Below, piece after piece: positions 873-17,659 of a stretch of DNA of 64,000 nucleotides. The stretch spans positions 1 through 64,000 of the forward strand of contig CALFBH010000017.1 of the NCBI GenBank assembly GCA_937951615.1. Reading direction: 5' to 3'. Numbering within the stretch: the stretch's first letter is position 1; every line of letters begins with the position of its first letter. Position numbers and translations under genes: made by a program. The notes under the pieces were generated by a model that was not told where the DNA came from, did not search any database, and saw only the letters and a program-made list of their open reading frames with translations. Source of the stretch: an uncultured Saprospiraceae bacterium (GTDB lineage: Bacteria; Bacteroidota; Bacteroidia; Chitinophagales; Saprospiraceae).

Positions 873-2303
873 ATGAATCCTTCCAAATTGTTTGAGCTTA
901 TATCATCCATCAGCGGGCAGGAGCGGGCAGATTTGCGGGTGTTTATCGGGATGTCGGGCAATGCTTTGAATGAGGAATTGCAGGCTGTTTTTTTGTTGCT
1001 CTTGGATTATATGGAGGGCAAAGAAGAAATCTCGGAGGAAGATTTTAAAGTGGAAATGCTGAGTGCTGCGCAGGCGAAAAAATGGAATCGAACTAAGAAT
1101 CATCTGCTTCGGGTATTGAAGAAATTCATGCTGATGAAGCTGACGGATACAGAAGGTGTCTGGGAAAGTTTTGTGTTGACGAAGTATTATCTGGACCACA
1201 AGCTGAAAAAGAATTTTGACAGTACGCTCAAAAAAACACTTAAAACGATTCAGCAGCGGCGAGGTGTTGCGGAGGAAGATGTGCTGGAATATTTTTTATA
1301 TTTATTAGAGATACAGAACAAGAAGGACGTGAGGGTACACGATACATCTGTGCAGTTGAGCGAACTGGCATTAGACCGCTTTTACCTGACTCAACGGCTG
1401 CGGATTTTGTGTGAACGCTATAATCGTTTTTTCATGACGCCTGGGGAAGATGCTGAGGCGATTGAAAAAGAAGTGGCTGAGATAAGAGGGAAAATCGAGG
1501 TTTGGGAAGCGATTCAAAACTCAAAAAATGATTTTATTTTAGCGAAACTTTATCTCAATGTGATAGATATTTCTTCTACGTCAAGTGAGGAGGCTTATGA
1601 GAATATGCTGAAATTTATAGCGGATGAAGACCATGAAAAACATATTCCTAAAGCTATTTGGGTAGATGTGCATAAGTATTTGATGAACTATTGTATCCGA
1701 AAAATTCATCAGTGTGATTTCGATTATATTGATGGCTATTTTCACTTTGCCGAGCTTTCAGGGTATGGTAGAACAGCTGCTTTGGAGCAGGCCGCAACAC
1801 TTGAAATCAATATTTTTGTCAATCATGTTTCTATGGCTATTCTTGCTGAGGATTATGAATGGGCAGAAAAACTGATTGCAGCAGTAGCAGAAGTACAAAA
1901 CAGCAGAGACTGGAAAAATATTATGGTACTGGCGAAAGCCCTGTTGCTTTTTTATCGGGGACAAACGGAAGAAAGCCATGAAGCCTTACAACAATTTGAT
2001 ACACAAAAAGACACCTTTTATAAACTCATTTATAAAAGTCTGCTGATGAAGATATACTTTACACAGAAATCCTGGCTTGTCCTGAAAGATTATATCATCA
2101 GTTTTAGAAAATATGTTAAGGAGCAGAAGATTGGAGCGGACAGAGAACAAAAAATGCTGAATTTTATACAATGTGTGGGGCAGCTTTATCGGGCGAAAGT
2201 GAAAAAGGAGGAAAAGGAGATTGACTTAGCAGTCCTAAAAGGAGAAATTTTTTCATTGGATTATCTCTGGCTGATAAAACTAAAAGAAAAGGAACAGCGT
2301 TAA
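873..2303 (+). CDS. conserved-looking helical protein of unknown function
   Basis: A 476-residue protein with no signal peptide and no membrane segment, so probably cytoplasmic. The sequence is almost entirely amphipathic helix, rich in Glu, Lys and Leu, with helix pairs in the C-terminal half (about residues 290-440) that look like divergent TPR-type repeats; no catalytic motif is visible. The first 110 residues could form a separate helical domain (many Lys/Arg around residues 65-95). I do not recognise the family. The ATG at 873 follows an A-run, usual for this phylum. The next gene on this strand, the TPR-CHAT gene, starts 590 bp downstream, past a small gene on the other strand, so an operon is unlikely. 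Confidence 0.7.
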   Translation: MNPSKLFELISSISGQERADLRVFIGMSGNALNEELQAVFLLLLDYMEGKEEISEEDFKVEMLSAAQAKKWNRTKNHLLRVLKKFMLMKLTDTEGVWESFVLTKYYLDHKLKKNFDSTLKKTLKTIQQRRGVAEEDVLEYFLYLLEIQNKKDVRVHDTSVQLSELALDRFYLTQRLRILCERYNRFFMTPGEDAEAIEKEVAEIRGKIEVWEAIQNSKNDFILAKLYLNVIDISSTSSEEAYENMLKFIADEDHEKHIPKAIWVDVHKYLMNYCIRKIHQCDFDYIDGYFHFAELSGYGRTAALEQAATLEINIFVNHVSMAILAEDYEWAEKLIAAVAEVQNSRDWKNIMVLAKALLLFYRGQTEESHEALQQFDTQKDTFYKLIYKSLLMKIYFTQKSWLVLKDYIISFRKYVKEQKIGADREQKMLNFIQCVGQLYRAKVKKEEKEIDLAVLKGEIFSLDYLWLIKLKEKEQR

Positions 2304-2309
2304 ACCATT

Positions 2310-2420
2310 CCTTCTCTAATATTATAGACTCCTTTAGCCGTCAAGTGGATTTTATTTAAATTTGACTTTCTCTTTGCGACGGCTGAAGTCGTCGGTACGG
2401 TATTCGCGGTCAGCCTGCAT
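2310..2420. repeat. REP-like palindromic segment
   Basis: Between 2375 and 2400 lies an imperfect inverted repeat, CGACGGCTGAAGTCGTCG, typical of REP-type hairpins. The flank nearer the helical gene, read on the minus strand, contains a stretch translating as GVYNIREG that closely resembles GVINLREG at 12325-12350 on the plus strand. The two places may be remnants of one dispersed repeat. A role as terminator for the upstream gene is possible but there is no T-tract. Confidence 0.4.
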
Positions 2421-2741
2421 TTAGTCAAGCACAACTTTTTGTGTAAACGTTTTGCCATTGTCCAAAGTAACGACAACCTGATAAGTATTGCGTGGTAAAT
2501 ACGCAACCGCATAAGCGCAACTGCTCGTCAGGCAACCTGTCAAAGTAAATTGGAGTTGTTTGCCAGTAGTAAAAAATTGAATTTCGGCAATCGTCTCGGA
2601 CGCATCGCCGGACGAGACCAGCATAACGGCATCTATCATGACAATAGAACCTGTGGTCTGTTGGGGGGTGTAGCTGTCTGTATGGGCATTCAGTCCAAAG
2701 CTCGTTAAAACGAGGGCAAAGATGATAATTGCTTGTTTCAT
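2421..2741 (-). CDS. small secreted beta protein, DUF3244-like
   Basis: About 106 residues starting MKQAIIIFALVL with a signal peptide cleaved after LNAHT. An ATG two codons earlier (2747) is also possible. The mature protein is short, beta-rich, and ends NTYQVVVTLDNGKTFTQKVV, the strand-turn-strand pattern of the small Bacteroidota DUF3244 family and of T9SS-like beta sandwiches. It has one Cys pair (TGCLTSSC). The function is unknown. A 40-nt hairpin lies just upstream of its start. Confidence 0.55.
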   Translation of the reverse strand: MKQAIIIFALVLTSFGLNAHTDSYTPQQTTGSIVMIDAVMLVSSGDASETIAEIQFFTTGKQLQFTLTGCLTSSCAYAVAYLPRNTYQVVVTLDNGKTFTQKVVLD

Positions 2742-2758
2742 CTGCATAAAATTTGAGG

Positions 2759-2798
2759 ATAAGCAGGCGATTTTACAAGAGCAAAATCGCCCGCTTAT
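2759..2798. repeat. long hairpin between divergent genes
   Basis: Two 16-bp arms (2759-2774 and 2783-2798) with a single A/C mismatch enclose an 8-nt loop. It lies upstream of both the small secreted protein (-) and the TPR-CHAT gene (+), with no T-tract in either direction, so it is not a classical terminator. It could be a regulator site, a 5' UTR structure or a passive palindrome. Confidence 0.6.
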
Positions 2799-2895
2799 TC
2801 AGGATTAAAAATAGGAGCATGATGATACCGGTATCTTTCAACCACAAGACGGAAGGAATTCGGGATTTACTTTTTTTCAAAAAATAAATTTTATT

Positions 2896-5589
2896 ATGCC
2901 ACTTGAAAACGTCAGACAACTCACAGAGAAAGCTGCACAAGCTGTTGAAAATAAGGGATTTGAAGAAGCCAATAAATTATTGGATAAAGCCTGTGAAATA
3001 TTGTATAAGAAGAAGTCGGATCGCGATTTTTTCCAGGAAGAAGGGAATGAAGTGGCTATTACATACAATGCGCTTGCAGATGCCTTTTTTTATGCTTCGG
3101 GTTTCGAGCAGGCTTTAGTGTGTTGGTACAAAATACTGGATATTCGGCTGGATGGCTGGGGAGAATTACATGTACATACGCTCGAAGCATATATACTCAT
3201 AGGTTATTATCTGAATTACCTTTGCAGGTATGAAGATTCTCGTGAATCATCCTGGAAAGGTATTGAAATAGCCGGGTTTCTCCCAAATGCTTTTATGGGA
3301 GAATTAGAATGCTATTCTAATATTGGTTTTTCCTATGCAGAAGAAAATGATTATGAAAATGCACTCTTCTATTATAAAAGAGCTTCAGGGCTTTTGACTC
3401 AAGAGATGAAAAACCTGACAGAACAGGAGTTAATAAACATTGGTGCTGTTTATAATAATACAGGCAGAGTATATCTTTCTCGCGGTGCTTATCAGGAAGC
3501 ATTAGATGAATTTGAAAAAATGAAAACAGTTTTAGATGAAGATAATCACCATTATAATCATTATCGAAATAATTTAGGGCTTTGCTACATAGGATTAAAA
3601 AGATATGATGAAGCATTAGAATTGTTTATTCATGTCGCTAATACCTGGGATTTTTTGATTGGAAAAGTTCTTGCCCATGTAAAAATACTTGAAATATACA
3701 TGGTGCAAAATCAAGTTGCAAAAGCAGAAAATTCACTTAAAAAATTACTACAATTAGTCAAAGAAATAGAAGGTTGGCATCAACTTATTCCCAACATATA
3801 CTGTGCTGTCGGGAAGTTTTATAAAGATACCAATCAATTGAGTCAGGCATTATCCTACAGCCAACTGACGATACAACAATCCTTATTTAATTTCAACCGT
3901 GCAGATAACCCATTTATGGTTGGTAAAATTCCTAAAATTCGAACCAAACGATGGCTCTTTGAAGGACTAAAGTTAAAAGCTGAAACCCAAACAGCATTAT
4001 ATCATCAAACCGAAGAACTTAAGTATTTAAAAGCCGCAATAGACACCTTCATCAATCTGGATTACACGATTGACCTTATCCGACGACATCATAAAGCGAC
4101 TGAATCACAATTGACCTTAGCCGAACAAGCCAAAGACATTTACGAAAAAGGTATTGCTGCATCTTTCGACTTGTATCAAAAGACCAATAAGAAAAAATAT
4201 GTAGAAACTGCTTTTCGCTTTGCAGAAAAAAGCAAAGCTATTCTATTGCTCCATGAGGTCAAACATCTAGGAGCAATGTTAAGTGCTGATATTCCTGAAG
4301 CAGTACTGGCGGAAGAAAAACAACTCATAAGACGTCTTAATAAACTGGAAAAAAACGCAGCAGAAAAAGACACAAAAGAACAATTCGACCTCCGCAGAAA
4401 ATTAGAACAACTTATAGAAAATTTAGAACAAGAACACCCCGATTATCACCAACTAAAATACAGTACAGAATCCGCTTCACCAGCTACTTTGCAGCAAGAG
4501 CTGACCGATAAGCAAACCATCATCAGTTATTTTATAGGGGAAGAAAAGGGATTTTATTTTAATATCAGTAAAGCAGGACTGAAGATGGGCAGGCTGGAGA
4601 AGCCCAAAATTATAGAAGAAAAAGTAGCTGTTTTTAATGCACTCGTGACGGATGTCATGGCAGATTCAGCAGCTTATAGTCATGCTGCACACTGGCTTTA
4701 TGAGCAGCTCATCGAGCCAGCATTGGGCAACAGTCCTGCTGAACATCTTATCATTCTACCCGATGGTGCTTTAAGCCAATTGCCTTTTGAAGCATTGATT
4801 AACAGGGCTGATAAACAGGCCAATGATTTCCATGAATTATCTTATCTGATTCGGGAATATGAAGTGACGTATCATTTTTCAGCAACGCTTTGGCAGTACG
4901 GTCGAATGAAGATTATTCCTCAAAAATATGAGCGGAGTTTTGCAGGCTTCGCGCCGACGTATAGCGGAGAATTATCGCCCGATCAGGATAGAAGCGGGCA
5001 TTATCGGGTTTGTGAAAATGAAGCAGGACTGTGTTATGAATTGCCCTATGCAAAAGAAGAAATTACAGAAATTGCCCGACTTTTTGGAACAAAAAAAACA
5101 GCCCTTTATCTCAATGAAGCCGCTTCAAAAGCTGCTTTTCTGAACCAGCAAACAGCTTCTACAAAATATGTTCATATTGCGGCACATGGATTTTATAATA
5201 GCGATGCAGAGACGGATTGTTATATCCAGTTTTCAGCAGATGAGCAGGCTGATATAAAACTGACGTTAAAAGATATACAAGTACTCCGGCTGGATACTTT
5301 TTTACTGGTCTTGAGTTGTTGTAATACAGGCGTGGGCAGGTATCGGAAAGGAGAAAGTATGCTGGCCCTTCATCGAGGCTTTTTGGCTGCGGGAGCGAAA
5401 AATGTGATTGCTACGATTTTTAAAGTACCAGACAAATTAGCTGCCCTCCTGATGGTCAATATGTATGAAAATCATTTGAAGAAAGGGAATAATATCGGTA
5501 GTGCTTTGCGACAAGCAAAACTCAGCATGATAGCCGATAAAGATGTGGTGCCAATTGCCTGGTGTGGTTATCAGTTGATTGGTAGCTAG
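2896..5589 (+). CDS. TPR-CHAT protein (caspase-like protease candidate)
   Basis: An 897-residue protein without signal peptide. Residues about 1-480 are helical TPR-type repeats (A/G/Y/A pattern, e.g. around the NNTGRVYLSRG stretch). The C-terminal third is a CHAT domain: LIILPDGALSQLPFEAL leads into it, and the predicted catalytic pair is His764 in HIAAHG and Cys809 in LSCCNTG, followed by the family pattern of a Gly-rich loop and the AGAKNVIAT strand. CHAT proteins belong to the clan CD (caspase/separase) fold; TPR units normally bind a partner that controls access to the active site. It converges on an ECF sigma factor and a small partner gene on the other strand, suggesting it acts on that pair. 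The substrate is not known. Confidence 0.88.
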   Translation: MPLENVRQLTEKAAQAVENKGFEEANKLLDKACEILYKKKSDRDFFQEEGNEVAITYNALADAFFYASGFEQALVCWYKILDIRLDGWGELHVHTLEAYILIGYYLNYLCRYEDSRESSWKGIEIAGFLPNAFMGELECYSNIGFSYAEENDYENALFYYKRASGLLTQEMKNLTEQELINIGAVYNNTGRVYLSRGAYQEALDEFEKMKTVLDEDNHHYNHYRNNLGLCYIGLKRYDEALELFIHVANTWDFLIGKVLAHVKILEIYMVQNQVAKAENSLKKLLQLVKEIEGWHQLIPNIYCAVGKFYKDTNQLSQALSYSQLTIQQSLFNFNRADNPFMVGKIPKIRTKRWLFEGLKLKAETQTALYHQTEELKYLKAAIDTFINLDYTIDLIRRHHKATESQLTLAEQAKDIYEKGIAASFDLYQKTNKKKYVETAFRFAEKSKAILLLHEVKHLGAMLSADIPEAVLAEEKQLIRRLNKLEKNAAEKDTKEQFDLRRKLEQLIENLEQEHPDYHQLKYSTESASPATLQQELTDKQTIISYFIGEEKGFYFNISKAGLKMGRLEKPKIIEEKVAVFNALVTDVMADSAAYSHAAHWLYEQLIEPALGNSPAEHLIILPDGALSQLPFEALINRADKQANDFHELSYLIREYEVTYHFSATLWQYGRMKIIPQKYERSFAGFAPTYSGELSPDQDRSGHYRVCENEAGLCYELPYAKEEITEIARLFGTKKTALYLNEAASKAAFLNQQTASTKYVHIAAHGFYNSDAETDCYIQFSADEQADIKLTLKDIQVLRLDTFLLVLSCCNTGVGRYRKGESMLALHRGFLAAGAKNVIATIFKVPDKLAALLMVNMYENHLKKGNNIGSALRQAKLSMIADKDVVPIAWCGYQLIGS

Positions 5590-5678
5590 TGCCTTCGGCA
5601 CTAATTTTTAAGACATATTAGCCCCACAATTTATCAGAAAAAAGAGGAATTTATTAAGTGCCGAAAAGCACTAGGGTT
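5583..5678. repeat. paired short hairpins in convergent gap
   Basis: The space between the converging TPR-CHAT and partner genes contains AGTGCCTTCGGCACT at about 5588-5602 and a second related hairpin, AGTGCCGAAAAGCACT, at about 5657-5672. The two share the AGTGC/GCACT arms. The second overlaps the stop codon region of the minus-strand gene. They probably serve as a bidirectional transcription stop. Confidence 0.55.
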
Positions 5679-6291
5679 TTAGAACTTTTTGAATATAAAA
5701 ACGAATCAAAGACTTCTCACCATCTTCGCCGTCTATATTGAGGTAATATACACCGGGGCGAAGCTGGCTTATATCTATGTTGTGTTGTACGGTATTGGCA
5801 GGAAGGATGACCGTAGGCAATTTATTATTTTCATTGTCAATAATGGTACATTTTACAGGACTTGATGTGGGATTTCTGAATTCAATAAGCAAATTATTTG
5901 TGGCATCTGCTTCCTGCTGAGGCTGCGATAAAAAAGAATCAGTACGTACATTCAGCAGCATGTCGTACCGTCTGTAAGGCGTAAAAAACTGAATAAGTTG
6001 CTCTGTGGTATATTCTATTGCTTGTTGTATGGGGTTTGTTTTTTTAGGAAATATATCCCGAAGCCTATTCAGTGAAATTGCTTTTTCTTTATCCAAATTT
6101 GCTTGCATGACTGCCCTGTCATTTCCGGCTTCCTGATACGTTGTTTTCACGCCTTCCACAAAAGTTTTGAAAGACTCCGATGACTGCATTTCTGTATCAA
6201 TGACCTGATGTGCATCACTAAGCAAAATGCCATCCAGATAATCTAAGATGAGTTCTGTGTCGAATAAATTATGTTTGTCGTATTCAGCCAT
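5671..6291 (-). CDS. candidate anti-sigma or sigma-partner protein
   Basis: A 206-residue protein with its start 9 bp after the end of the sigma factor gene, so cotranscribed with it. The N-terminus (about residues 12-50, ILDYLDG followed by an acidic helix) resembles the N-terminal helices of anti-sigma factors but lacks the Cys/His zinc ligands. Residues about 55-110 are helical and charged. The C-terminus is beta-type, ending with a LRPGVYYLNIDG strand pair. I see no transmembrane segment, so unlike most ECF anti-sigma factors it would be cytoplasmic. Calling it an anti-sigma factor is inferred mainly from position. Confidence 0.55.
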   Translation of the reverse strand: MAEYDKHNLFDTELILDYLDGILLSDAHQVIDTEMQSSESFKTFVEGVKTTYQEAGNDRAVMQANLDKEKAISLNRLRDIFPKKTNPIQQAIEYTTEQLIQFFTPYRRYDMLLNVRTDSFLSQPQQEADATNNLLIEFRNPTSSPVKCTIIDNENNKLPTVILPANTVQHNIDISQLRPGVYYLNIDGEDGEKSLIRFYIQKVLKP

Positions 6292-6300
6292 ACCTACTAT

Positions 6301-6876
6301 CTAAGTTATAGGAGATTTTTCTTTGTATCGAATGAGTTTTTGGGTCACGGTTTGTTTTTTCTTTCTGACTTGTTGCAAGGTCAGTTCGTATTTTTCGGAG
6401 AGTCTTTCGTAAGCCGTTTTTCTGCCTTCTGCGGCGGCTTTAATGGCTTCGCAATAGGAGTAATAAAAATCATATTGCTCATCAGACAAACACAGCTTTG
6501 CCAGTTGGTCCGCCTTTGCTAGTTTATCCGCTGTTGATTCGTCTGGAGCTTCGGCTATTTTTATGGAGTGGTGTATGTCTGTTAGTTCTTCTGTTGGGTT
6601 ATGCCTGCGCAATTTGTCCATACTTACGGTACTAATAACGCTTAGGAAATAGCCTTTGACATTTTTTTCAATCTTGTATTTTCTCTGATACAATTTAATC
6701 AAAGCATCCTGTACAATTTCCTGCGCATCTATATGGGGAGCTGTTTTTACTTTTCCTTTTGCATAATTGTATAAATCGTCGTATAAATGATTTACGATAG
6801 CAGTGAATGCTTCTTCATCATCTGTTTCCAGAAATGAATGCCACCAGCCCAGCAATTTGTCAGACGATAATGCCAT
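6301..6876 (-). CDS. ECF-type RNA polymerase sigma factor
   Basis: A 191-residue sigma-70 family protein. Region 2 is visible at about residues 20-95: the helix with IVQDALIKLYQR corresponds to the core-binding part, and VKGYFLSVISTVSMDKLRR to the promoter-melting part. Region 4 is at about 150-185 (TAYERLSEKYELTLQQVRKKK, a helix-turn-helix). The linker is acidic. It leads a two-gene unit with the small partner gene, and its targets might include the TPR-CHAT gene. Length and organisation fit ECF sigma factors. Confidence 0.85.
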   Translation of the reverse strand: MALSSDKLLGWWHSFLETDDEEAFTAIVNHLYDDLYNYAKGKVKTAPHIDAQEIVQDALIKLYQRKYKIEKNVKGYFLSVISTVSMDKLRRHNPTEELTDIHHSIKIAEAPDESTADKLAKADQLAKLCLSDEQYDFYYSYCEAIKAAAEGRKTAYERLSEKYELTLQQVRKKKQTVTQKLIRYKEKSPIT

Positions 6877-6985
6877 TTAAAAGACGATGCAATGATTTGA
6901 ATTTACTTGAAATGGTTAATTTTAACAAAAATAATATTTTCCTATACTTTAACGCTCTATTATTGTAAATAAATGTAAATAAGCC

Positions 6986-7447
6986 ATGCATCAAATTGAA
7001 TTCAGCCCAATCGCCCACGTCCAAAATTCCCGCAGCACGCCTGAAGATGACAACTGGAGTACCATCTCATCTGTCATTGTTTTGGCAGAGAATATTTCTA
7101 CCGAAGCACTGGATGGCATAGAAGCATTTTCCCATTTGGACATCATTTATTATTTCCATCTGGTGAAAGCCGAAAAAGCTGTGGCAAGAAGTCGGCATCC
7201 ACGCAATAATCCTGATTGGCCAAAAGTTGGTACTTATGCACAACGCAATAAAAGTCGCCCGAATCGACTTGGATTGACAACCGTTCAATTATTGAAAAGA
7301 GAAGGACGTAAATTGACGGTTGCCCAACTGGACGCGATTGATGGCACTCCTATTTTAGACATCAAGCCTGTTATGAAAGAATTTTTACCGAAAGGAGAAG
7401 TCGTACAGCCTATTTGGAGTACAGAGTTGATGAAGGGCTATTGGTAA
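6986..7447 (+). CDS. trmO: tRNA m6t6A37 methyltransferase, TrmO/TsaA family
   Basis: A 153-residue protein of the UPF0066 (TrmO) family, which uses S-adenosylmethionine to methylate t6A37 in tRNA-Thr. The signature segments are present: the N-terminal strand FSPIAHVQNSR, the central GTYAQRNKSRPNRLGLTTVQ, and DGTPILDIKPVM. It is at the short end of the family and lacks the C-terminal extension of the E. coli protein. Divergent from the sigma factor gene. Confidence 0.85.
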   Translation: MHQIEFSPIAHVQNSRSTPEDDNWSTISSVIVLAENISTEALDGIEAFSHLDIIYYFHLVKAEKAVARSRHPRNNPDWPKVGTYAQRNKSRPNRLGLTTVQLLKREGRKLTVAQLDAIDGTPILDIKPVMKEFLPKGEVVQPIWSTELMKGYW

Positions 7448-8986: not shown

Positions 8987-9685
8987 ATGAAAGATGCCCT
9001 GTTTTTAATTCCTGCACGAGGTGGCTCGAAAGGGATTCCTGGTAAAAATACTAAACTGCTGAACGGAAAGCCCTTAATTGCTTACGCTATAGATGCTGCC
9101 CGCACATTTGTACCTGATACGCAAATCTGTGTGAGTTCTGATTCACCTGAAATAATAAAGTCTGTTCGTGACATGGATATTGAGGTGCCTTTTGTACGTC
9201 CAGCTGAACTGTCGGATGACAAAGCGGGAATGCAAGGGGTGATGATACATGCTTTGAATCATTATGCACGGCAGGGTATTTATTATAATAAAATTGTTTT
9301 GTTACAGCCTACTTCACCTTTCCGTCTGCCTCGGCACATTAAGGAAGCTTATCAGTTGTATGAAGAAAATCTGGAGATGGTTGTTTCTGTGAAGGAAGCA
9401 GAATCAAATCCCTATTATGTTCATTTTAAGGAAAATAAATCCGGATTTTTGGAAAAATTATTACCGGGTTCTTTTAATAGCCGCCAAGTTGTACCTAAAG
9501 TTTATGAGTATAATGGAGCCATATATATTATTAATGCTACAGCGATTCGCGAGAAACCACGTGCACATTTTAAGCTAGTTAAGAAATATGTGATGGATGG
9601 TCTTTATTCTGTTGATATTGATACGCCTATAGATTGGGCTTTTTGCGATTTTCTGCTTCAAAATGGATATATATATGAAAAGTGA
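8987..9685 (+). CDS. neuA: CMP-sugar synthetase, NeuA/PseF-like
   Basis: A 232-residue cytidylyltransferase of the acylneuraminate family, which activates a nonulosonic acid (sialic, legionaminic or pseudaminic acid) with CTP. The nucleotide-binding signature IPARGGSKGIPGKN is at residues 8-21; the second motif, around LLQPTSPFR, is at about 104-112. The substrate cannot be decided; no nonulosonate synthase is in the window. It is 5 bp after the M16 peptidase gene and is followed by a diverged paralogue. Confidence 0.85.
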   Translation: MKDALFLIPARGGSKGIPGKNTKLLNGKPLIAYAIDAARTFVPDTQICVSSDSPEIIKSVRDMDIEVPFVRPAELSDDKAGMQGVMIHALNHYARQGIYYNKIVLLQPTSPFRLPRHIKEAYQLYEENLEMVVSVKEAESNPYYVHFKENKSGFLEKLLPGSFNSRQVVPKVYEYNGAIYIINATAIREKPRAHFKLVKKYVMDGLYSVDIDTPIDWAFCDFLLQNGYIYEK

Positions 9686-9887: not shown

Positions 9888-10607
9888 ATGAAGCAGAGAA
9901 ATACACATTTGAGTCAGTCTGTTTTTGAACACACTTTGTTTATTGTCCCAGCTTATAATATTGGAGACAAAGAGAATGTTCTTTTGACACCATTGAATGG
10001 AAAGCCTTTACTGCATTACGCGCTTGATACTGCTCAACAATTGATTCCGAAAAATCAAATCTGTGTGAGCTCAAATGACATGAATATCATCAATTCAGCA
10101 CTTAATTACGGACAAAATATCCCTTTCAAATTACCTGAAGAACTATCGAGTATGGAGGATGTGGATATAGACGAGATTGTGTTGCACGCCATTGATCATT
10201 ATGCCCGCAAAGGAGGAACTTTTGATAAGGCGGTTGTTTTATCACCTCATGCGCCATTCTGTACAGCCCAGCATATTAAAGAAGCATACGCCTTGTTTGA
10301 TAAAAATACGGATATGGTAGCTTCGGTCAGTCCAAATTCTTCTAAAAAGAAAGAAAAGTTTATAGAAAATAAGGATGGATTTTTAGAAACACTACCTGAT
10401 AATATACCTGTCAATGGATATGACGCTTTTTGTTATAATCAGGTGTTTTCTATTCTCAGAACGACTTCTATCCGACAGCATCCGCGTTCTTTTTTTCGCA
10501 AAGTGCGTAAATACCTCATGGAAGAACTATATGCGACAATGATTTTTCAATCCGAAGACATTAGACGTGGCGAGCATTTAATTCAAGAAGGTTTATTGAT
10601 GGGCTAA
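9888..10607 (+). CDS. degenerate cytidylyltransferase paralogue
   Basis: A 239-residue protein that aligns along its length with the preceding NeuA-like protein: LNGKPLLHYALDTAQ, QICVSSN, IDHYARKGG, HIKEAYALFDKN and the C-terminal FRKVRKYLMEELYA all have counterparts at matching positions. The CTP-binding signature is gone: where the active paralogue has RGGSKGIPGKN, this one has VPAYNIGDKENV (about residues 20-31), without the RxGSKG residues. TSPFR is changed to HAPFC. The reading frame is intact over 239 codons, so it may be a pseudoenzyme kept for another role, such as a partner subunit. Confidence 0.75.
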   Translation: MKQRNTHLSQSVFEHTLFIVPAYNIGDKENVLLTPLNGKPLLHYALDTAQQLIPKNQICVSSNDMNIINSALNYGQNIPFKLPEELSSMEDVDIDEIVLHAIDHYARKGGTFDKAVVLSPHAPFCTAQHIKEAYALFDKNTDMVASVSPNSSKKKEKFIENKDGFLETLPDNIPVNGYDAFCYNQVFSILRTTSIRQHPRSFFRKVRKYLMEELYATMIFQSEDIRRGEHLIQEGLLMG

Positions 10608-10617
10608 ATGTAAAGCT

Positions 10618-10721
10618 TGATTGTTCGATTGCTTCATGGTTATGTGTTTTTTTTTGCGAAGCAATTCAACCATGAAGCAATTCAACCATGAAACAATTCA
10701 ACCATAAAACCATGAAACAAT
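10618..10721. repeat. 16-nt tandem repeat with hinge hairpin
   Basis: Nearly four copies of a 16-nt unit CAATTCAACCATGAAG begin at 10662, 10678 and 10694. A single complementary arm precedes them (about 10619-10644, containing GATTGCTTCATGGTT). Between the arms is a T-run followed by the mini-hairpin TTGCGAAGCAA (10654-10664). The array overlaps the 3' end of the minus-strand glycosyltransferase gene. The same family recurs at 16470-16566. Confidence 0.7.
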
Positions 10722-11484
10722 ACCGCTTCTTTCCCACTCGCTTCAAACGAAACAGTCCTGCCCGAAATCCAATCCATAAATGGTGATAAAAATTTTCCCG
10801 TGCGCCAAAGTGCTTTTGTAAAATACGATAACGATCTTCTAGTGATTCTTTGTGTCGCTGACGAGAAAGTCCACCTGTCTGAAATCCAGCTATAGTCGTA
10901 TGTGTATGTGTTGTTTTTCGACTTTTTTTCAAACATTGAATCACCCAGTCTATATCTGCACACAAATTATTTTCGATATACAAAGGAGCGATACTACGCC
11001 GTACAATAAATGCCTGATGACTCACCACCATACCAAAACGCATAGTTTCCCAGCTTAGATTTTCAGGTAGGCGATGTGGGGTGAGCTGACTGCGCAAGCC
11101 AAGCGGTTCTTTTTGTGCATCGACCATCATGACGTCACCATAAAGCACATCAGTTTCGGGCGTATACTGTGCGAATACTTTTTCAAGGGTATTTTCTGCA
11201 TAAAAAAAATCACCAGCATTGAGGAATAAAACAAAATCACCTTGCGCTTTTTTTAGCCCTTTGTTCATCGCATCATACAGCCCTTTATCAGGTTCGCTTT
11301 GCCAGTCCAACTGACTTTCATATTTTTTTACGATATTCACCGTATGATCTGTCGAAGCTCCATCCAGCACAAGGTATTCAATATGCGGATAGGTCTGACT
11401 AAGTACGCTTTGAATCGTATATTCAATGTCCGCAGCTGCATTATAAGCAACAGTAATAACAGTAATGCTTGGTAAAGTTTTCAC
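10666..11484 (-). CDS. family 2 glycosyltransferase
   Basis: A 272-residue GT2 enzyme with a GTG start (11484). Visible motifs: ITVITVAYNAAADI at the N-terminus, LDGASTDHT (nucleotide binding, about 40-48), the DKGLYDAMNKG stretch and LFLNAGDFF (the DxD-equivalent region). GT2 enzymes use NDP-sugars to build polysaccharides or glycolipids. The last about 18 residues, rich in F, M, L, W and C, are translated from the 16-nt tandem repeat, so the true functional end is probably near residue 254. It may belong to a surface-glycan locus with the NeuA-like gene and the GT4 gene. Confidence 0.85.
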   Translation of the reverse strand: MKTLPSITVITVAYNAAADIEYTIQSVLSQTYPHIEYLVLDGASTDHTVNIVKKYESQLDWQSEPDKGLYDAMNKGLKKAQGDFVLFLNAGDFFYAENTLEKVFAQYTPETDVLYGDVMMVDAQKEPLGLRSQLTPHRLPENLSWETMRFGMVVSHQAFIVRRSIAPLYIENNLCADIDWVIQCLKKSRKTTHTHTTIAGFQTGGLSRQRHKESLEDRYRILQKHFGARENFYHHLWIGFRAGLFRLKRVGKKRYCFMVLWLNCFMVELLHG

Positions 11485-11610
11485 AAAAATAAATTATAAT
11501 CATTTTTTCGCCTGCGAAAAAAGAAAAACAAACCGCGACAGCGCAGCAAAAAAGTCCCGGTCAAATGCTCAAATCCCCCGAAGTAATTCCCAAAGTTAAA
11601 AAAGAAGTCA

Positions 11611-12126
11611 ATGAAAGATTATCAGTTAGCACACGACGAAATTAAGAAAGAAATTAGAAAATATCCGATTTGTTTGCTGGCAAATGATATTAATGTGCCT
11701 ATGAACATTGGAAGTCTCTTTCGGATTGCTGATGCTTTTGGTGTTCAGAAAATATATCTGTGCGGTGATTCTCCTGTGCCGCCCAATAAGAAAATTAGCA
11801 AAACGGCAAGGGCTACGGTGAAAGCAGTGGACTATGAATATCAAAAAAATGCACTTGAAACTGTTAACATTTTAAAAAAAGAGGAATATATAATTGTAAG
11901 CCTTGAAATTACAAAGCATAGTGTGGACATCCGAGATTTTAATATCCAACCGACAGATAAAATTTGTCTGATTATCGGTGCGGAAAGTACAGGCGTTGAA
12001 CAGGCATTATTAGATGCTTCTGATGCAGTGGTGCATATTCCGATGTATGGACAAAACTCCTCGATGAATGTCGCTGCGGCAACCGCAATTGCTGTCTTTG
12101 AACTGGCTAAAAATTATATGCCATAA
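11611..12126 (+). CDS. SpoU/TrmH family RNA 2'-O-methyltransferase
   Basis: A 171-residue SPOUT-fold methyltransferase. The three SpoU motifs are present: NIGSLFRIADAFG (about 31-43), ICLIIGAESTGV (about 127-138) and IPMYGQNSSMNVAAATAI (about 147-164), the last forming the trefoil-knot SAM site. The short length without an N-terminal substrate-binding domain is like the TrmH-type small members. The tRNA or rRNA target is not determined. Confidence 0.88.
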   Translation: MKDYQLAHDEIKKEIRKYPICLLANDINVPMNIGSLFRIADAFGVQKIYLCGDSPVPPNKKISKTARATVKAVDYEYQKNALETVNILKKEEYIIVSLEITKHSVDIRDFNIQPTDKICLIIGAESTGVEQALLDASDAVVHIPMYGQNSSMNVAAATAIAVFELAKNYMP

Positions 12127-12437
12127 AATTATTGGTCGTTGAGTTTGCTAAAACGTCTGGTGATTTGGGCAATAAAACAACCAACATGACCGAGAAATAT
12201 CAAAATGAAAGTGGCGATCTCCTCAATTATGTAAGCTATCATTCCAAACATGGCGGTGGTGCTGAAGAGGTTTTGCAACACAAAAAAAACGGCTCCGAGA
12301 TGGCACATATCACCCTTCATGCCAATGGAGTTATTAACCTTAGAGAAGGACGCAGCAAAGGGAAAGAGTTGGTCGGTTTTGTTAAAAACGGATTGAGTGG
12401 CTTTTCGCCCTCGCCCTCCATCAAACTGCAGGCGTTT
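12127..12437. other. intergenic region with decayed coding-like sequence
   Basis: Two overlapping frames are open here, a plus-strand one from a TTG at 12132 and a minus-strand one with two hydrophobic segments from 12320. Neither is clearly real. The plus-strand GVINLREGRSKG segment resembles GVYNIREG on the minus strand of 2310-2345, indicating a dispersed repeat or an old element remnant. I see no RNA gene. Confidence 0.35.
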
Positions 12438-13694
12438 TTACGGCGTGTTAAGGACGAGTTTTAATAGCTGGAAAATCTGATGCACATATTTTTCTGTGGT
12501 GAATTGAGCCATTGCTTTTTCACGACCTGCTTCGCCCATTTTTGTAGCCTTCTCTCTATTTAATATCAAATACTCCATTTGTGTAGCCAGTTCTTCTGCG
12601 TTGCCTTGGTATAATAATCCATTCACGCCATGCTCCACAAGCTCCGGGGTAGCTCCACTTTCGTAGCCAATGACAGAAATTCCATAAGCCATGGCTTCTG
12701 CCGTCACGCGTCCCATACCTTCGTGCAAAGAACACATCAAAAGCGCGTCTGCCTGCTGATAGATTTCGCTCGGATTGGGAACGTAACCCATGATGCGGAC
12801 TTTATTTTCCAATTGATGTTTTTTGCAAAATTGTTTCATCCGCCAAGTGTAAATCCTTCTGCCTTTACCTACAAAAATCAGTTGAATATTATCGTGTTTT
12901 TGCGACAGCATAAAAAAAGCTTTTAAAGCCTGCATCTGCTGTTTCATGGGATGAATGAGTCCTATATTTAGGAAGGTGAAGGGTTTGCCACTCTCGCCCC
13001 TAGCCCCTAAAGTGGAGTCCTGCGCTTTGTCTGTCAAGTGGGCGGATTCCCCTTTAGGGGCTAGGGGCGGGCGAGAGAGAGCATCCATCTCCTCTTCACC
13101 CATTATCCCATTATACACCAGATGCTTCGGTGCAGTTACTTTCGGCAATACACCATCCAGCAAAGCCTGTGAAATGCTGACCACAGCAGCCGAGCGATTC
13201 ATCCATTTTAGGAAATTTGTCTGCCCAAAAACGTAATTGGTTTTATAATGCTCGCGCACAAATTCTCGGATATGCCAGACATGTTTTTTGCCCAGTCGAT
13301 GTGCCAAATATGCGCCGATTGCAGTAACAGAACTATTGGTATAAATAATATCGGGATTGAGGGCTTTGACTTTTCGGGTGAGTGAGGGCAGGAGGATTTG
13401 GTTTTGTATAATGCGAAGCGGAAAGAGATAATAATTGATAGACACTTTCGTGTAAACCCAGTTGGTAAATGGAGCAATCAGGTATTCAATACCTTCTTCC
13501 TGCAAGGCCTTTGTAAAATCACCTTCTTTCGGACACAGCAAAATGCTTTTTACTCCATGTATTTGCAAACCACGCACCAAGCCCAGCAGAGAGCGATTGG
13601 CACCCATAAGGTCAGCGTAGTGAGTGATGAAGAGGATTTTAAGTGGGCGTGTTGATGTGTTGATGTGTTGTCGTGTTGTGGTGTTTTTCTTCAT
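12438..13694 (-). CDS. family 4 glycosyltransferase with inserted palindromic segment
   Basis: A 418-residue GT-B fold enzyme. The N-terminal domain has ITHYADLMGANRSLLGLVRG (about residues 24-43); the C-terminal GT1-type domain runs from FTFLNIGLIHPMKQQ through SLHEGMGRVTAEAMAYG to TPELVEHGVNGLLY (nucleotide-sugar binding, E-x7-E pattern). Between the two domains (about residues 206-237) lies a low-complexity linker coded by a palindromic DNA element at 12991-13078. The first 17 residues (Asn/Thr-rich) are coded by an intergenic simple repeat, so the native start is uncertain. Likely role: surface polysaccharide synthesis. Confidence 0.85.
   Translation of the reverse strand: MKKNTTTRQHINTSTRPLKILFITHYADLMGANRSLLGLVRGLQIHGVKSILLCPKEGDFTKALQEEGIEYLIAPFTNWVYTKVSINYYLFPLRIIQNQILLPSLTRKVKALNPDIIYTNSSVTAIGAYLAHRLGKKHVWHIREFVREHYKTNYVFGQTNFLKWMNRSAAVVSISQALLDGVLPKVTAPKHLVYNGIMGEEEMDALSRPPLAPKGESAHLTDKAQDSTLGARGESGKPFTFLNIGLIHPMKQQMQALKAFFMLSQKHDNIQLIFVGKGRRIYTWRMKQFCKKHQLENKVRIMGYVPNPSEIYQQADALLMCSLHEGMGRVTAEAMAYGISVIGYESGATPELVEHGVNGLLYQGNAEELATQMEYLILNREKATKMGEAGREKAMAQFTTEKYVHQIFQLLKLVLNTP
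12991..13078. repeat. palindromic element inserted in frame in a coding sequence
   Basis: Left arm 12991-13020 and right arm 13045-13078 are near-perfect reverse complements over about 26-30 bp, built on CCCCTAGCCCCTAAAG and its complement. The element is C-rich on one side and G-rich on the other, unlike the AT-rich surroundings. It is read through in the glycosyltransferase frame and lies in the linker between its two domains. Confidence 0.75.
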
Positions 13695-16382: not shown

Positions 16383-16456
16383 GGTAGCGTAGTTCAATCA
16401 GGCAGAGCAGGGGATTGTCTATCCTCAAGTTGCGGGTTCGATTCCCGTCGTTACCG
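16383..16456 (+). tRNA. tRNA-Asp (GTC)
   Basis: Acceptor arms GGTAGCG/CGTTACC pair, D stem GTTC/GAGC, anticodon stem GGGGA/TCCTC, T arm GCGGG/CCCGT, discriminator G73 as expected for Asp. The anticodon loop reads TTGTCTA, giving anticodon GTC but a T at position 37, where a purine is usual. No CCA is encoded. Confidence 0.82.
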
Positions 16457-16469
16457 CTAAATTTCATGG

Positions 16470-16566
16470 CTCAATTGCTGTATTGTTCAATTGTTTCATA
16501 GTTAGGTTTTTTTGCTACGCAAAAAACATGAAGCAATGTAACAGTGAGACCATGAAACCATGAAAA
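16470..16566. repeat. facing repeat element with GCTACGC hinge
   Basis: The spacer between tRNA-Asp and tRNA-Ala has a left arm with ATTGTTCAATTGTTTCATAG and a right arm with CATGAAGCAATG and ACCATGAAACCATGAA, joined by a hinge of 8-bp stem T-run GC, triloop TAC, GC A-run (16507-16526). It belongs to the same phrase family as 10618-10721. Confidence 0.65.
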
Positions 16567-16568
16567 AG

Positions 16569-16641
16569 GGGAGTACATGTCCAAGGCAGGCGATGTTGCT
16601 TTGCAAGCAACGTGTGATGGGTTCGATTCCCATAACTTCCA
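16569..16641 (+). tRNA. tRNA-Ala (TGC)
   Basis: The anticodon stem GTTGC/GCAAC is perfect with loop TTTGCAA (anticodon TGC). The T arm is ATGGG/CCCAT. The acceptor stem keeps the G3-U70 wobble, the main identity element of tRNA-Ala, with discriminator A. The D stem pairs poorly and the 7-66 pair is A-A, so the gene looks diverged. No CCA is encoded. Confidence 0.72.
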
Positions 16642-16654
16642 CTGGTTCTAAACT

Positions 16655-16726
16655 CTAGGCGTAGCTTAACGGGAGAGCACTGCATTTGGAATGCAGACGG
16701 TGTAGGTTCGACTCCTACTGCTTAGA
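16655..16726 (+). tRNA. tRNA-Pro (TGG)
   Basis: Acceptor arms CTAGGCG/TGCTTAG, D stem GCTT/GAGC, anticodon stem CTGCA/TGCAG, loop TTTGGAA giving TGG, T arm GTAGG/CCTAC, C1-G72 and A73 as in tRNA-Pro. Position 37 is A, although tRNA-Pro normally has G37, the target of TrmD. No CCA is encoded. Confidence 0.8.
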
Positions 16727-16733
16727 CAAATAC

Positions 16734-16806
16734 AACCATGTAGTTCAATTGGATAGAACAGGAGGCTACGAACCTCCAGACCGGGGTTCGAGTCCCTGCG
16801 TGGTTA
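16734..16806 (+). tRNA. tRNA-Arg (ACG)
   Basis: Acceptor AACCATG/CGTGGTT, D stem GTTC/GAAC, anticodon stem GGAGG/CCTCC with loop CTACGAA (ACG), T stem CGGGG/CCCTG, discriminator A. The A34 would be deaminated to inosine by TadA to read CGU/CGC/CGA. No CCA is encoded. Confidence 0.88.
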
Positions 16807-16824
16807 CTAAGAACGTTTTAAAAT

Positions 16825-16897
16825 GGTAGAATTAGTTTAATCGGTAAAATGTCGCGTTGTGAGCGCGGAGTCCAGGGTTCGAATCCCGGTTCTACCC
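16825..16897 (+). tRNA. tRNA-His (GTG)
   Basis: Acceptor GGTAGAA/TTCTACC, anticodon stem TCGCG/CGCGG, loop TTGTGAG (GTG), discriminator C73, which is specific to tRNA-His. The base before position 1 is T, not the G that bacteria usually encode to pair with C73. The T stem has one mismatch or a bulged A. Confidence 0.82.
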
Positions 16898-16899
16898 AA

Positions 16900-17005
16900 G
16901 TAGCAGTAGCAGTATCAGTAACAAGGTCAGTATCAGTTTCAATAAGAATAATTTGCTTTGCAAATGACCATGTATTGCGACTGATATTGCTACTGAAACT
17001 GAATC
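16900..17005. repeat. facing CAGTATCAGT repeats with GCTTTGC hinge
   Basis: The left arm (16900-16942) is made of CAGTAGCAGTATCAGT-type units, the right arm (16978-17005) carries the complementary ACTGATATTGCTACTG units, and the hinge is ATTTGC-TTT-GCAAAT at 16951-16965. It occupies the spacer between tRNA-His and tRNA-Gly. Related phrases occur at 46660-46700 and 51815-51846. Confidence 0.65.
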
Positions 17006-17006
17006 A

Positions 17007-17079
17007 GCAAGTGTCGTATAATGGCTTATTATGTCTGACTTCCAATCAGAGGATCAAGGTTCGATTCCTTGTACTTGCT
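17007..17079 (+). tRNA. tRNA-Gly (TCC)
   Basis: Acceptor GCAAGTG/TACTTGC, anticodon stem TCTGA/TCAGA perfect with loop CTTCCAA (TCC), T arm CAAGG/CCTTG, discriminator T73 as in bacterial tRNA-Gly. The D stem has a mismatch. No CCA is encoded. Confidence 0.85.
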
Positions 17080-17090
17080 CTTTGTTTTGG

Positions 17091-17160
17091 TAATTGGGGT
17101 ATTAGGATATTGGGAATAATAGCAAACTAATTACTAATATACCAATAACCAATTACCACA
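17091..17160. repeat. facing GGTAATTGG / CCAATTACC repeats
   Basis: The left arm has GGTAATTGGGGTATTAGG, the right arm TACCAATAACCAATTACC, with no strong hinge between. It fills the spacer between tRNA-Gly and tRNA-Val. The ACCAATTACC phrase family recurs at 46705-46745, 51848-51898 and 56800-56823. Confidence 0.6.
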
Positions 17161-17167
17161 TTTAAAA

Positions 17168-17241
17168 AGCGATGTAGCGCAGTGGTTTAGCGCAGCTCTC
17201 TTACACAGAGAAGGTCGGGAGTTCGAATCTCTCCATCGCTA
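17168..17241 (+). tRNA. tRNA-Val (TAC)
   Basis: Acceptor AGCGATG/CATCGCT perfect, D stem GCGC/GCGC, anticodon loop CTTACAC (TAC), T arm followed by discriminator A. The first base is A rather than the usual G, and the first anticodon-stem pair is G-A. No CCA is encoded. Confidence 0.87.
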
Positions 17242-17245
17242 CAAT

Positions 17246-17315
17246 GACTTGGTAGCTCAACGGTAGAGCAATGCCCTGTTAAGGCAAAGGTTGCAGGTTC
17301 ATCCTGCCTGGGTCG
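17246..17315 (+). tRNA. tRNA-Asn (GTT), T loop shortened
   Basis: Acceptor GACTTGG/CTGGGTC, D stem GCTC/GAGC, anticodon loop CTGTTAA (GTT), discriminator G as in tRNA-Asn. The T arm is GCAGG-TTCAT-CCTGC: a 5-nt loop instead of 7, as if two bases of the usual TTCGAAT were lost. It is therefore 70 nt long. It may be a damaged copy, a sequencing error or a truly altered tRNA. Confidence 0.7.
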
Positions 17316-17316
17316 C

Positions 17317-17390
17317 GAGTTTATTGAGTTTATTGAGTTTATTGAGTTTATTGAGTTTATTGAGTTTATTTTGCTACGCAAAATAAACTC
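17317..17390. repeat. 9-nt tandem repeat closing in a 13-bp hinge hairpin
   Basis: Six perfect copies of GAGTTTATT start 2 bp after tRNA-Asn (17317, then every 9 nt to 17362). The last copy is the 5' arm of a perfect 13-bp hairpin with triloop TAC (17362-17390, centre GCTACGC); the 3' arm has only one copy of the complementary unit. A CAACTCAATAAC segment of the same family follows near 17419-17430. Confidence 0.85.
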
Positions 17391-17453
17391 CTACTAATTA
17401 CTCACACAATTACTTAATCAACTCAATAACATAGTTTCTCAATCAACCCAATC

Positions 17454-17527
17454 TCCGATATGGCGCAATTGGTGAGCGCGTCCGCCTGATACGCGGAAGG
17501 TTGCTGGTTCGAGTCCAGCTATCGGGA
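17454..17527 (+). tRNA. tRNA-Ile (GAT)
   Basis: Acceptor TCCGATA/TATCGGG (first pair T-G), D stem GCGC/GCGC, anticodon stem TCCGC/GCGGA with loop CTGATAC (GAT), T arm GCTGG/CCAGC, discriminator A. In this phylum tRNA-Ile(GAT) is usually inside the rRNA operon; here it is in an array. No CCA is encoded. Confidence 0.85.
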
Positions 17528-17531
17528 CTAA

Positions 17532-17604
17532 GCTGACATAGCATAATTGGTATTGCCCCTGATTTGTAATCAGGAGATTGTTGGTTCGAATCCAACTGTC
17601 AGCT
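17532..17604 (+). tRNA. tRNA-Thr (TGT)
   Basis: Acceptor GCTGACA/TGTCAGC perfect, anticodon stem CCTGA/TCAGG with loop TTTGTAA (TGT), T arm GTTGG/CCAAC, discriminator T. One D-stem mismatch. Last gene of the ten-tRNA array. TrmO, encoded at 6986-7447, would modify this type of tRNA. Confidence 0.88.
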
Positions 17605-17659
17605 CTCTTTAAGTACTTCGGCACAATGCCAGTTCAGCTAACTGATTTATTGCCAACTA

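Follow-up and report, generated by a model that had tools for sequence, protein, structure and literature searches.

A TPR-CHAT protease, a soluble partner and an ECF sigma factor as a putative CRISPR-independent proteolytic switch in Saprospiraceae

In the passages of PMC10028731 considered here, the Craspase (CASP) system comprises type III-E Cas7-11, Csx29, Csx30 and CASP-sigma, with the N-terminal part of Csx30 binding the sigma factor and its C-terminal part being recognised by the CHAT protease. The same passages recount how proteolysis of the membrane anti-sigma factors RseA and RsiW frees an extracytoplasmic function (ECF) sigma factor, and abstracts on RsiV describe likewise regulated anti-sigma proteolysis. 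Passages of a further study (PMC8195603) place EACC2-caspases in neighbourhoods with ECF sigma and DUF1822 tetratricopeptide repeat (TPR) genes. Here we examine a 64,000-nucleotide stretch of an uncultured Saprospiraceae genome (contig CALFBH010000017.1; the whole stretch is called the window), in which a TPR-CHAT protease gene faces a gene pair for an ECF sigma factor and a small partner protein. From sequence comparison, we consider this trio probably to be a proteolytic transcription switch in which the activated CHAT protein would cut the partner and free the sigma factor, with predicted sigma binding, CHAT docking, cleavage, cut site, signal and regulon. The original prediction for this DNA had proposed a CRISPR-independent proteolytic sigma switch from gene positions, calling the anti-sigma role of the partner unproven; the evidence presented below, comparative in kind, supports it.

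Comparison with described systems

The trio shares with Craspase a TPR-CHAT protease, an ECF-type sigma factor and a putative sigma inhibitor (passages of PMC10028731). It differs in the near-invariant arginine of the trio partners described below, whereas no residue is essential at the Csx30 cut in those passages of PMC10028731, and in the existence of a membrane form among the trios. Furthermore, the partner profile, run against the Protein Data Bank (PDB), returned nine rows up to E 10 with neither an anti-sigma factor nor Csx30 among them, although distant relatives can escape a sequence search. A profile of the CHAT domain alone matched 8rot_B ('CHAT domain-containing protein') at 2.5e-6 and reached five 'CHAT domain protein' chains, which we take to be Csx29, only at E 0.05-0.1; a PDB search with a single CHAT sequence found no CHAT-type protein, and one with the full-length CHAT profile was swamped by TPR proteins. 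The trio contig, C17, carries no match to the Cas7-type RAMP family (PF03787), the only Cas family searched, and hence no Cas7-11 (fused RAMPs) at the locus. The earlier statement that the three genes lie together with no Cas gene was checked for RAMP proteins, with none on this contig and five matches on contigs C43 and C116 of the source genome. The genes at G000:C43:95451-98262 and G000:C116:28393-31254 are RAMP-type Cas genes, likely of a type III CRISPR system, on contigs other than that of the trio.

The membrane form of the trio has the layout for an extracytoplasmic anti-sigma cut near the membrane, as in the accounts of RseA/DegS, RsiW and RsiV. In contrast to these, the trio protease is a gene-linked CHAT (caspase/separase-like) protein, and the window form is cytoplasmic, with no membrane step and no anchor on the partner. 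Zinc-binding anti-sigma (ZAS) factors of the zf-HC2 family appear to have a related N-domain, and many trio relatives keep the H-x3-C-x2-C motif, one of them scoring above the family cut-off; the window partner, however, has no zinc ligands, no membrane helix and an immunoglobulin-like (Ig-like) C-domain. The EACC2 study had already predicted conflict-system caspase-fold peptidases acting via ECF sigma factors, with other protein families and, in the passages seen, no anti-sigma partner (PMC8195603). By analogy, the trio would work like the protease arm of Craspase and like DegS/RseA, and by the criteria applied it is a member of neither.

The three genes and the anti-sigma kinship of the partner

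The open reading frames place the three genes exactly where the original prediction had put them, including the convergence of the CHAT gene on the sigma/partner operon, and the catalytic dyad that it named is intact. The TPR-CHAT gene (2896..5589, + strand; 897 aa), assessed by Pfam, alignment and hydropathy, has a CHAT domain (PF12770) at residues 597-897 with 188.4 bits against a cut-off of 24, TPR matches within about residues 138-255, and, judged by hydropathy, no signal peptide. All 16 aligned relatives keep His764 and Cys809, and so do 54 of the 55 CHAT proteins of a wider set, the 55th being gapped there. With the domain above its cut-off and both dyad residues in place, the product qualifies as a predicted CHAT peptidase. 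On the CHAT tree it sits on a long branch of unsure placement.

The sigma gene (6301..6876, - strand; 191 aa) is the first of the sigma-partner pair and is followed on the same strand, after a gap of 10 bp, by the partner gene (5671..6291, - strand; 206 aa); 82 bp separate the partner stop from the CHAT stop, the two genes being convergent. Pfam finds Sigma70_r2 in the 191-aa protein (28.0 bits, cut-off 24) and no match for region 4; NCBIfam sigma models match it, all below their own cut-offs. Built from 26 sigma relatives, a profile aligns with most of the length of solved ECF factors, among them SigW at 1.6e-21 over profile positions 8-185 of 196. By Pfam region 2 and this profile the protein is classified as an ECF sigma factor, in agreement with its earlier naming. 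Neither the sigma factor nor the partner has a paralogue in its own genome at E 0.01. PADLOC-DB 2023 gave no match at E <= 0.1 for six proteins including the three of the window, and a known anti-phage defence system was rejected as the identity of the locus on that result.

The partner, studied through a structure model, alignments and hydropathy, was modelled with a mean predicted local distance difference test score (pLDDT) of 85. Four helices at residues 12-80 are followed by a low-confidence linker at residues 83-90 (the sole internal stretch with pLDDT < 50), a conserved motif at residues 94-110 (consensus YTLxELxxxFxPxxxYE), a loop with Arg116, and an Ig-like domain at about 118-201 of the type found in DUF3244 proteins and the C-terminal domains of type IX secretion system (T9SS) substrates, which are also its best fold matches (3sd2: Z 9.1, root-mean-square deviation (rmsd) 2.3, 81 aligned; 8qb1: Z 9.0, rmsd 2.1, 77 aligned). 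The NCBIfam T9SS sorting domain scores 23 bits, exactly at its cut-off, and no signal peptide was seen. Hydropathy shows no membrane helix (best 19-residue mean 0.29), as had been expected of a partner without a membrane anchor.

Because a fold search with the whole model returned the Ig domain only, the N-domain was modelled alone. Its top three Foldseek rows were RsiW, RsiW and ChrR, all weak (E 1.0 or worse), and realignment gave RsiW, RskA and ChrR at Z 5.8 or less; the absence of other families from the whole-model lists proves nothing. Clearer kinship comes from the relatives. Thirteen partner relatives at 12 loci, with the same C-domain and an adjoining CHAT gene (no more than 5 kb off at 11 loci, 5.3 kb off in L081), carry H-x3-C-x2-C, as do the partners of L200, L201 and L203 and not that of L202; the L203 partner exceeds the Pfam zf-HC2 cut-off (25.0 bits vs 22.2). 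At 5.8e-5, positions 2-73 of the soluble-partner profile match the ZAS relative of L114. Glu34, Ser38 and Phe41 occupy the ligand columns of the window partner, which therefore lacks the motif. As support for anti-sigma kinship, the relatives with zinc ligands, one of them above the zf-HC2 cut-off, outweigh the weak fold matches, and we assign the window partner as a predicted zinc-less, anchor-less relative of zinc anti-sigma factors. No CHAT-partner or sigma-partner fusion, which would indicate contact, was found among the reading frames of L001-L167, L198-L212 and L228-L235.

Recurrence, matched compartments and a conserved arginine

The source genome has 15 CHAT matches, six of which adjoin a sigma/partner pair (the window, L018, L019, L021, L023 and L025). 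A partner search of 198 genomes of the same order gave matches in 24, the source included. From 43 matches listed outside the source genome 32 were taken, leaving out ten frames of at least 444 aa and one of 130 aa; L090, a 111-aa frame, is not a partner and was dropped, so that 31 loci remain, chosen regardless of CHAT. A same-strand gene matching the sigma profile lies within 600 bp of the partner in 29 of the 31, and L081 has a 362-aa gene with Sigma70_r2 (2e-8) 517 bp away; a sigma-like gene is thus found beside 30 of 31 partners, L062 having none. TPR-CHAT genes occur within 5 kb in 18 of 31. In G041, the genome with most copies, a CHAT gene is no more than 5 kb away from seven of 11 partners, compared with 8% expected per locus (P 5e-6), an expectation derived from 46 first-look CHAT candidates, 11 of them scored.

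The gene near the CHAT-less partner of L061 (9745-12990, +) encodes an nSTAND NTPase whose N-terminus is CHAT-like and which also has WD40-like matches, and near that of L062, the locus with no sigma gene, an LRR-Roc-COR protein (10235-13036, +). The sigma/partner module may serve other NLR-like sensors.

Across the phylum, 395 genomes were scanned with a broader partner profile, and 40 of them yielded 54 rows in all. At E 1.5e-25 or better, seven rows were strong, one of them the window partner itself; of the other six, five span at least profile positions 28-198 and one spans 71-198. Each of these six lies outside the source genome and adjoins a CHAT gene in the convergent arrangement of the window; because L198 and L199 repeat the genes of L110 and L131, four of the six loci are new. 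The original prediction had named first, among the findings that would refute it, a partner that is not conserved next to CHAT genes, and had called for a check of co-occurrence; conservation there is what both searches found (18/31 and 6/6). The remaining rows covered the N-terminal part only (39) or the C-terminal part only (8). At eight N-part-only loci (L204-L206, L208-L212) a sigma-profile gene adjoins in every case, and a CHAT-like gene is nearby in three (L208-L210), with Pfam confirming CHAT for L208 and L209. A search for TPR-type partners with a source-genome query gave a CHAT-profile gene within 5 kb in two of eight loci (L228, L234).

Starting instead from CHAT, we took the best 80 of 182 matches in a contig scan, which fall into 77 loci, some repeating earlier ones; this sample is biased because the profile was built from trio CHATs. 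Within the region fetched, sigma and partner were both present at 26 loci, the partner only at eight and sigma only at one. Trios were found in records titled Bacteroidota, Ignavibacteria(les) and KSB1, with the caution that titles of metagenome-assembled genomes may be wrong, and partner-CHAT pairs with a sigma candidate that is weak or beyond the contig end in records titled Acidobacteria (Sigma70_r2 0.08), Neomarinimicrobiota (4e-4) and Caldithrix. The trio is more than a chance neighbourhood and not a local accident. We found no description of a CRISPR-free trio in titles, abstracts and passages of the literature, most subscription journals lying outside that search.

Membrane and soluble forms were distinguished at 44 loci. 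In 18, the partner has a membrane helix and the CHAT protein a hydrophobic signal; in 26, the window included, neither was scored, so that the compartments of partner and CHAT agree in 44 of 44 loci as scored. Both features were judged by hydropathy, not with a trained predictor, at a membrane threshold of 1.55; L123 (1.55) then counts as anchored, its helix being clear by eye, and L078 (1.53), whose peak is inside the Ig domain, does not. Hand choices entered the count: L145 was read from its first residue, an upstream start of L127 was ignored, the complete second CHAT of L139 was used, and the second partners of L146 and L153 were dropped; the CHAT start of L104 is masked, and its scored lack of a signal is uncertain. 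L200-L203, found partner-first, have the membrane form in both genes, with signals judged by eye. The membrane form had no place in the original prediction. Since zinc ligands and membrane anchors are usual in anti-sigma factors, the envelope form is presumably the older. We read these results as CHAT meeting the C-terminal half of the partner, which in the anchored form would lie outside the membrane.

At L146 (2739-4395 and 8594-10189), whose record bears the title uncultured Microscilla, an exported CHAT gene has a sigma/partner pair on one flank and, on the other, a second partner with no membrane helix followed by a 181-aa sigma-looking gene, unmatched.

Mirror-tree analyses used trios with a sigma match, L104 being left out by hand. 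Among 21 soluble trios, the partner C-domain correlates with CHAT given sigma (r 0.45, reached by 11 of 3000 permutations) and hardly with sigma given CHAT (r 0.12, 583/3000), while the N-domain correlates with sigma given CHAT (r 0.40, 0/3000). In these 21 trios, then, the C-domain co-varies with CHAT rather than with sigma.

In the loop ahead of the Ig domain, 31 of 32 aligned partners have Arg at position 116; the 32nd, L085, has Lys there and Arg four residues earlier, and the residue that follows is Ser, Ala, Gly, Thr or Asn. Because the alignment has gaps in this loop, an alignment-free count was also made: Arg plus a small residue occurs within a 42-residue stretch in 54 of 58 partners, against 21% of background windows (42/58 with a narrower segment, which proved too narrow). 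The four misses are L142 (Arg just beyond the segment), L127 (Lys), the second partner of L153 and L207 (Arg absent in both); L139 was counted as a match, though Lys stands at the aligned place. A second set, made up of 16 anchored Ig-type partners plus the second partner of L146, keeps the Arg in 17 of 17, the next residue being Ser in 14, Gly in two and Ala in one. The TPR-type partners of the source genome (L018, L019, L021, L023) have an Arg after the anchor, by eye; since the TPR-type relative L228 has none, the Arg rule is claimed for the Ig type only.

CHAT relatives, separase and gingipain among them, cleave after Arg and hold the residue through an acid. Residue 846 of the 55 CHAT proteins is Asp in 50, Glu in two, Gln in two and a gap in one, and Asp846 is a candidate S1 acid; it also occurs in six of the seven source-genome CHATs without a sigma/partner pair, and so is not special to the trio. 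The row 8d9h, which we read as Csx29, has Ser at this column. The two Gln846 CHATs, L127 and L139, are sisters on the tree, and their partners have Lys at the Arg place (by eye in L127, by alignment in L139), a pairing that counts as one correlated change in these sequences. Arg116 is hence our predicted CHAT cut site in the window partner, the putative scissile bond Arg116-Thr117 lying at codons 5941..5946 (- strand; translation checked), as conservation suggests.

The proposed switch, its alternatives and neighbouring genes

In the switch as we picture it, the partner would be a soluble anti-sigma factor whose N-terminal helical domain keeps the ECF sigma factor inactive, while its C-terminal Ig-like domain would dock on the CHAT protease. 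The TPR half of the CHAT protein would sense a cytoplasmic signal, upon which the His764/Cys809 domain would cut the partner, most likely after Arg116 between the YTxEL motif and the Ig domain; the cut anti-sigma would be lost and the sigma factor set free. The soluble system would be derived from, or sister to, an envelope form with a membrane-anchored anti-sigma and an exported CHAT protein, which would act there like a site-1 protease.

Several results count against this switch. The best fold match of the N-domain is poor (E 1.0, Z 5.8, rmsd 9.6, 61 aligned). At 13 of the 31 order-level partner loci, a CHAT gene is missing from the 5 kb around the partner: that of L081 is 5.3 kb away, seven loci meet a contig end within 5 kb, and five, L061 and L062 among them, have room but none. 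Neither sigma nor partner lies in the fetched region at 42 of the 77 CHAT-first loci (best 80 of 182 matches). The single same-genus genome searched gave no partner match, which, together with the long CHAT branch, makes the distribution of the trio patchy. The second partner of L153 and L207 (no CHAT nearby) lack the Arg, as does L228, which is of the same genus, and the second partner of L146 is discordant in compartment. On the tree the compartment match amounts to one change and not many independent events; it is therefore treated as a single joint event, and Fisher's P for it is unused. In the mirror-tree, the N-domain of the 21 soluble trios also correlates with CHAT given sigma (r 0.32, 0/3000), and in 14 membrane trios every pair correlates, so that shared history has not been removed. 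Finally, no promoter motif shared by sigma and CHAT genes was found at 35 loci, in a weak test in which own sigma/CHAT pairs did no better than mismatched ones (2452 of 5000 permutations were as good).

Some of these points bear on a different account, which we hold to be unlikely, in which the partner is a true anti-sigma factor released in another way (by a ligand, other proteases or partner switching) and CHAT is merely a target gene or neighbour. The same genome has CHAT-less sigma/anti-sigma pairs (L204-L206), five of the 31 partner loci have room on both sides and no CHAT, and at two membrane-form loci of the source genome the gene after the anti-sigma encodes another protease, DegS-like with Trypsin_2 and PDZ at L018 (1879-3210, -) and papain-like at L025 (4878-5711, +). 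However, this account would not lead one to expect matched compartments, co-variation of the C-domain with CHAT, or a near-invariant Arg, nor does it gain from the promoter test, which, weak as it is, found no motif shared by sigma and CHAT. Quite improbable, in our judgement, is that the partner is a CHAT inhibitor or substrate whose freed Ig-like fragment is the effector, with sigma a side branch. Few parts of the partner are as well conserved as the Ig-like domain, its fold matches DUF3244 proteins and T9SS C-terminal domains, and the role of the Csx30 C-fragment is left open in the passages of PMC10028731; yet the predicted kinship of the N-domain to zinc anti-sigma factors and the sigma-like gene beside 30 of 31 partners favour sigma control. 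Chance, or lineage-wide clustering of expanded families, is hardly credible: CHAT genes are numerous (15 in the source genome; in G041, 46 candidates at first look, of which 11 were scored), but the G041 count of 7/11 against 8% expected, the six of six strong phylum matches and the same layout in other phyla speak against it, and chance neighbours were rejected on these recurrence counts.

Within the proposed switch itself, Arg116 might be structural, a loop residue packing on the Ig domain, with CHAT cutting elsewhere, for example in linker 83-90. Invariant residues are often structural, that linker is the only internal stretch with pLDDT < 50, and Csx30 has, in the passages of PMC10028731, no residue essential for cleavage. 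Nevertheless, the Arg belongs to a loop and not to the Ig strands, a small residue comes after it in the aligned sets, and its place changes together with CHAT residue 846 in L127 and L139; we regard a structural role as somewhat unlikely.

The extra protease genes of L018 and L025 look as if two proteases act on one anti-sigma.

More tentatively, a widespread CRISPR-independent class of CHAT proteins might serve as anti-sigma proteases with a conserved Arg as the residue after which they cut. The ancestor would be an envelope form, made up of an anchored zinc anti-sigma factor and an exported CHAT protein as a caspase/separase-like site-1 protease; it would have moved whole into the cytoplasm once, with anchor and signal peptide lost together and the zinc site lost in many lines, and Craspase would be a CRISPR-captured version of that older switch; we see this as conceivable, and would not bet on it. 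If true, the Csx29-Csx30-sigma logic of Craspase would fall within a much wider CRISPR-free class of protease-controlled sigma factors, and some of the many TPR-CHAT genes that Bacteroidota and other phyla carry with no explanation would be accounted for. It would also name a testable substrate and cut site for TPR-CHAT proteins, and provide a case of an envelope-type proteolytic cascade relocated to the cytoplasm.

Other features of the window are of less certain relevance. A terminator-like stem overlaps the CHAT stop between the convergent genes (5587..5603, +), by consensus match only; window positions 2300-7100 hold five such sites against 3.9 expected. Divergent from the CHAT gene, a 108-aa protein with a signal-like start and no Pfam match is encoded at 2421-2747 (-), and a 130-aa protein resembling it at 4017-4409 of L207, near a CHAT-less partner-like gene. 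The 476-aa protein at 873-2303 (+), of no clear Pfam family, has relatives near the sigma/partner loci L207, L085 and L228, and also in L013, L144 and L162; it may be a loose companion of such loci, or merely common. Two adjacent cytidylyltransferase-like genes, read from the sequence with no search, lie at 8987-9685 and 9888-10607 (both +), the second resembling a diverged copy without the GGSKG motif, and nine tRNA genes are clustered at 16383-17605 (+).

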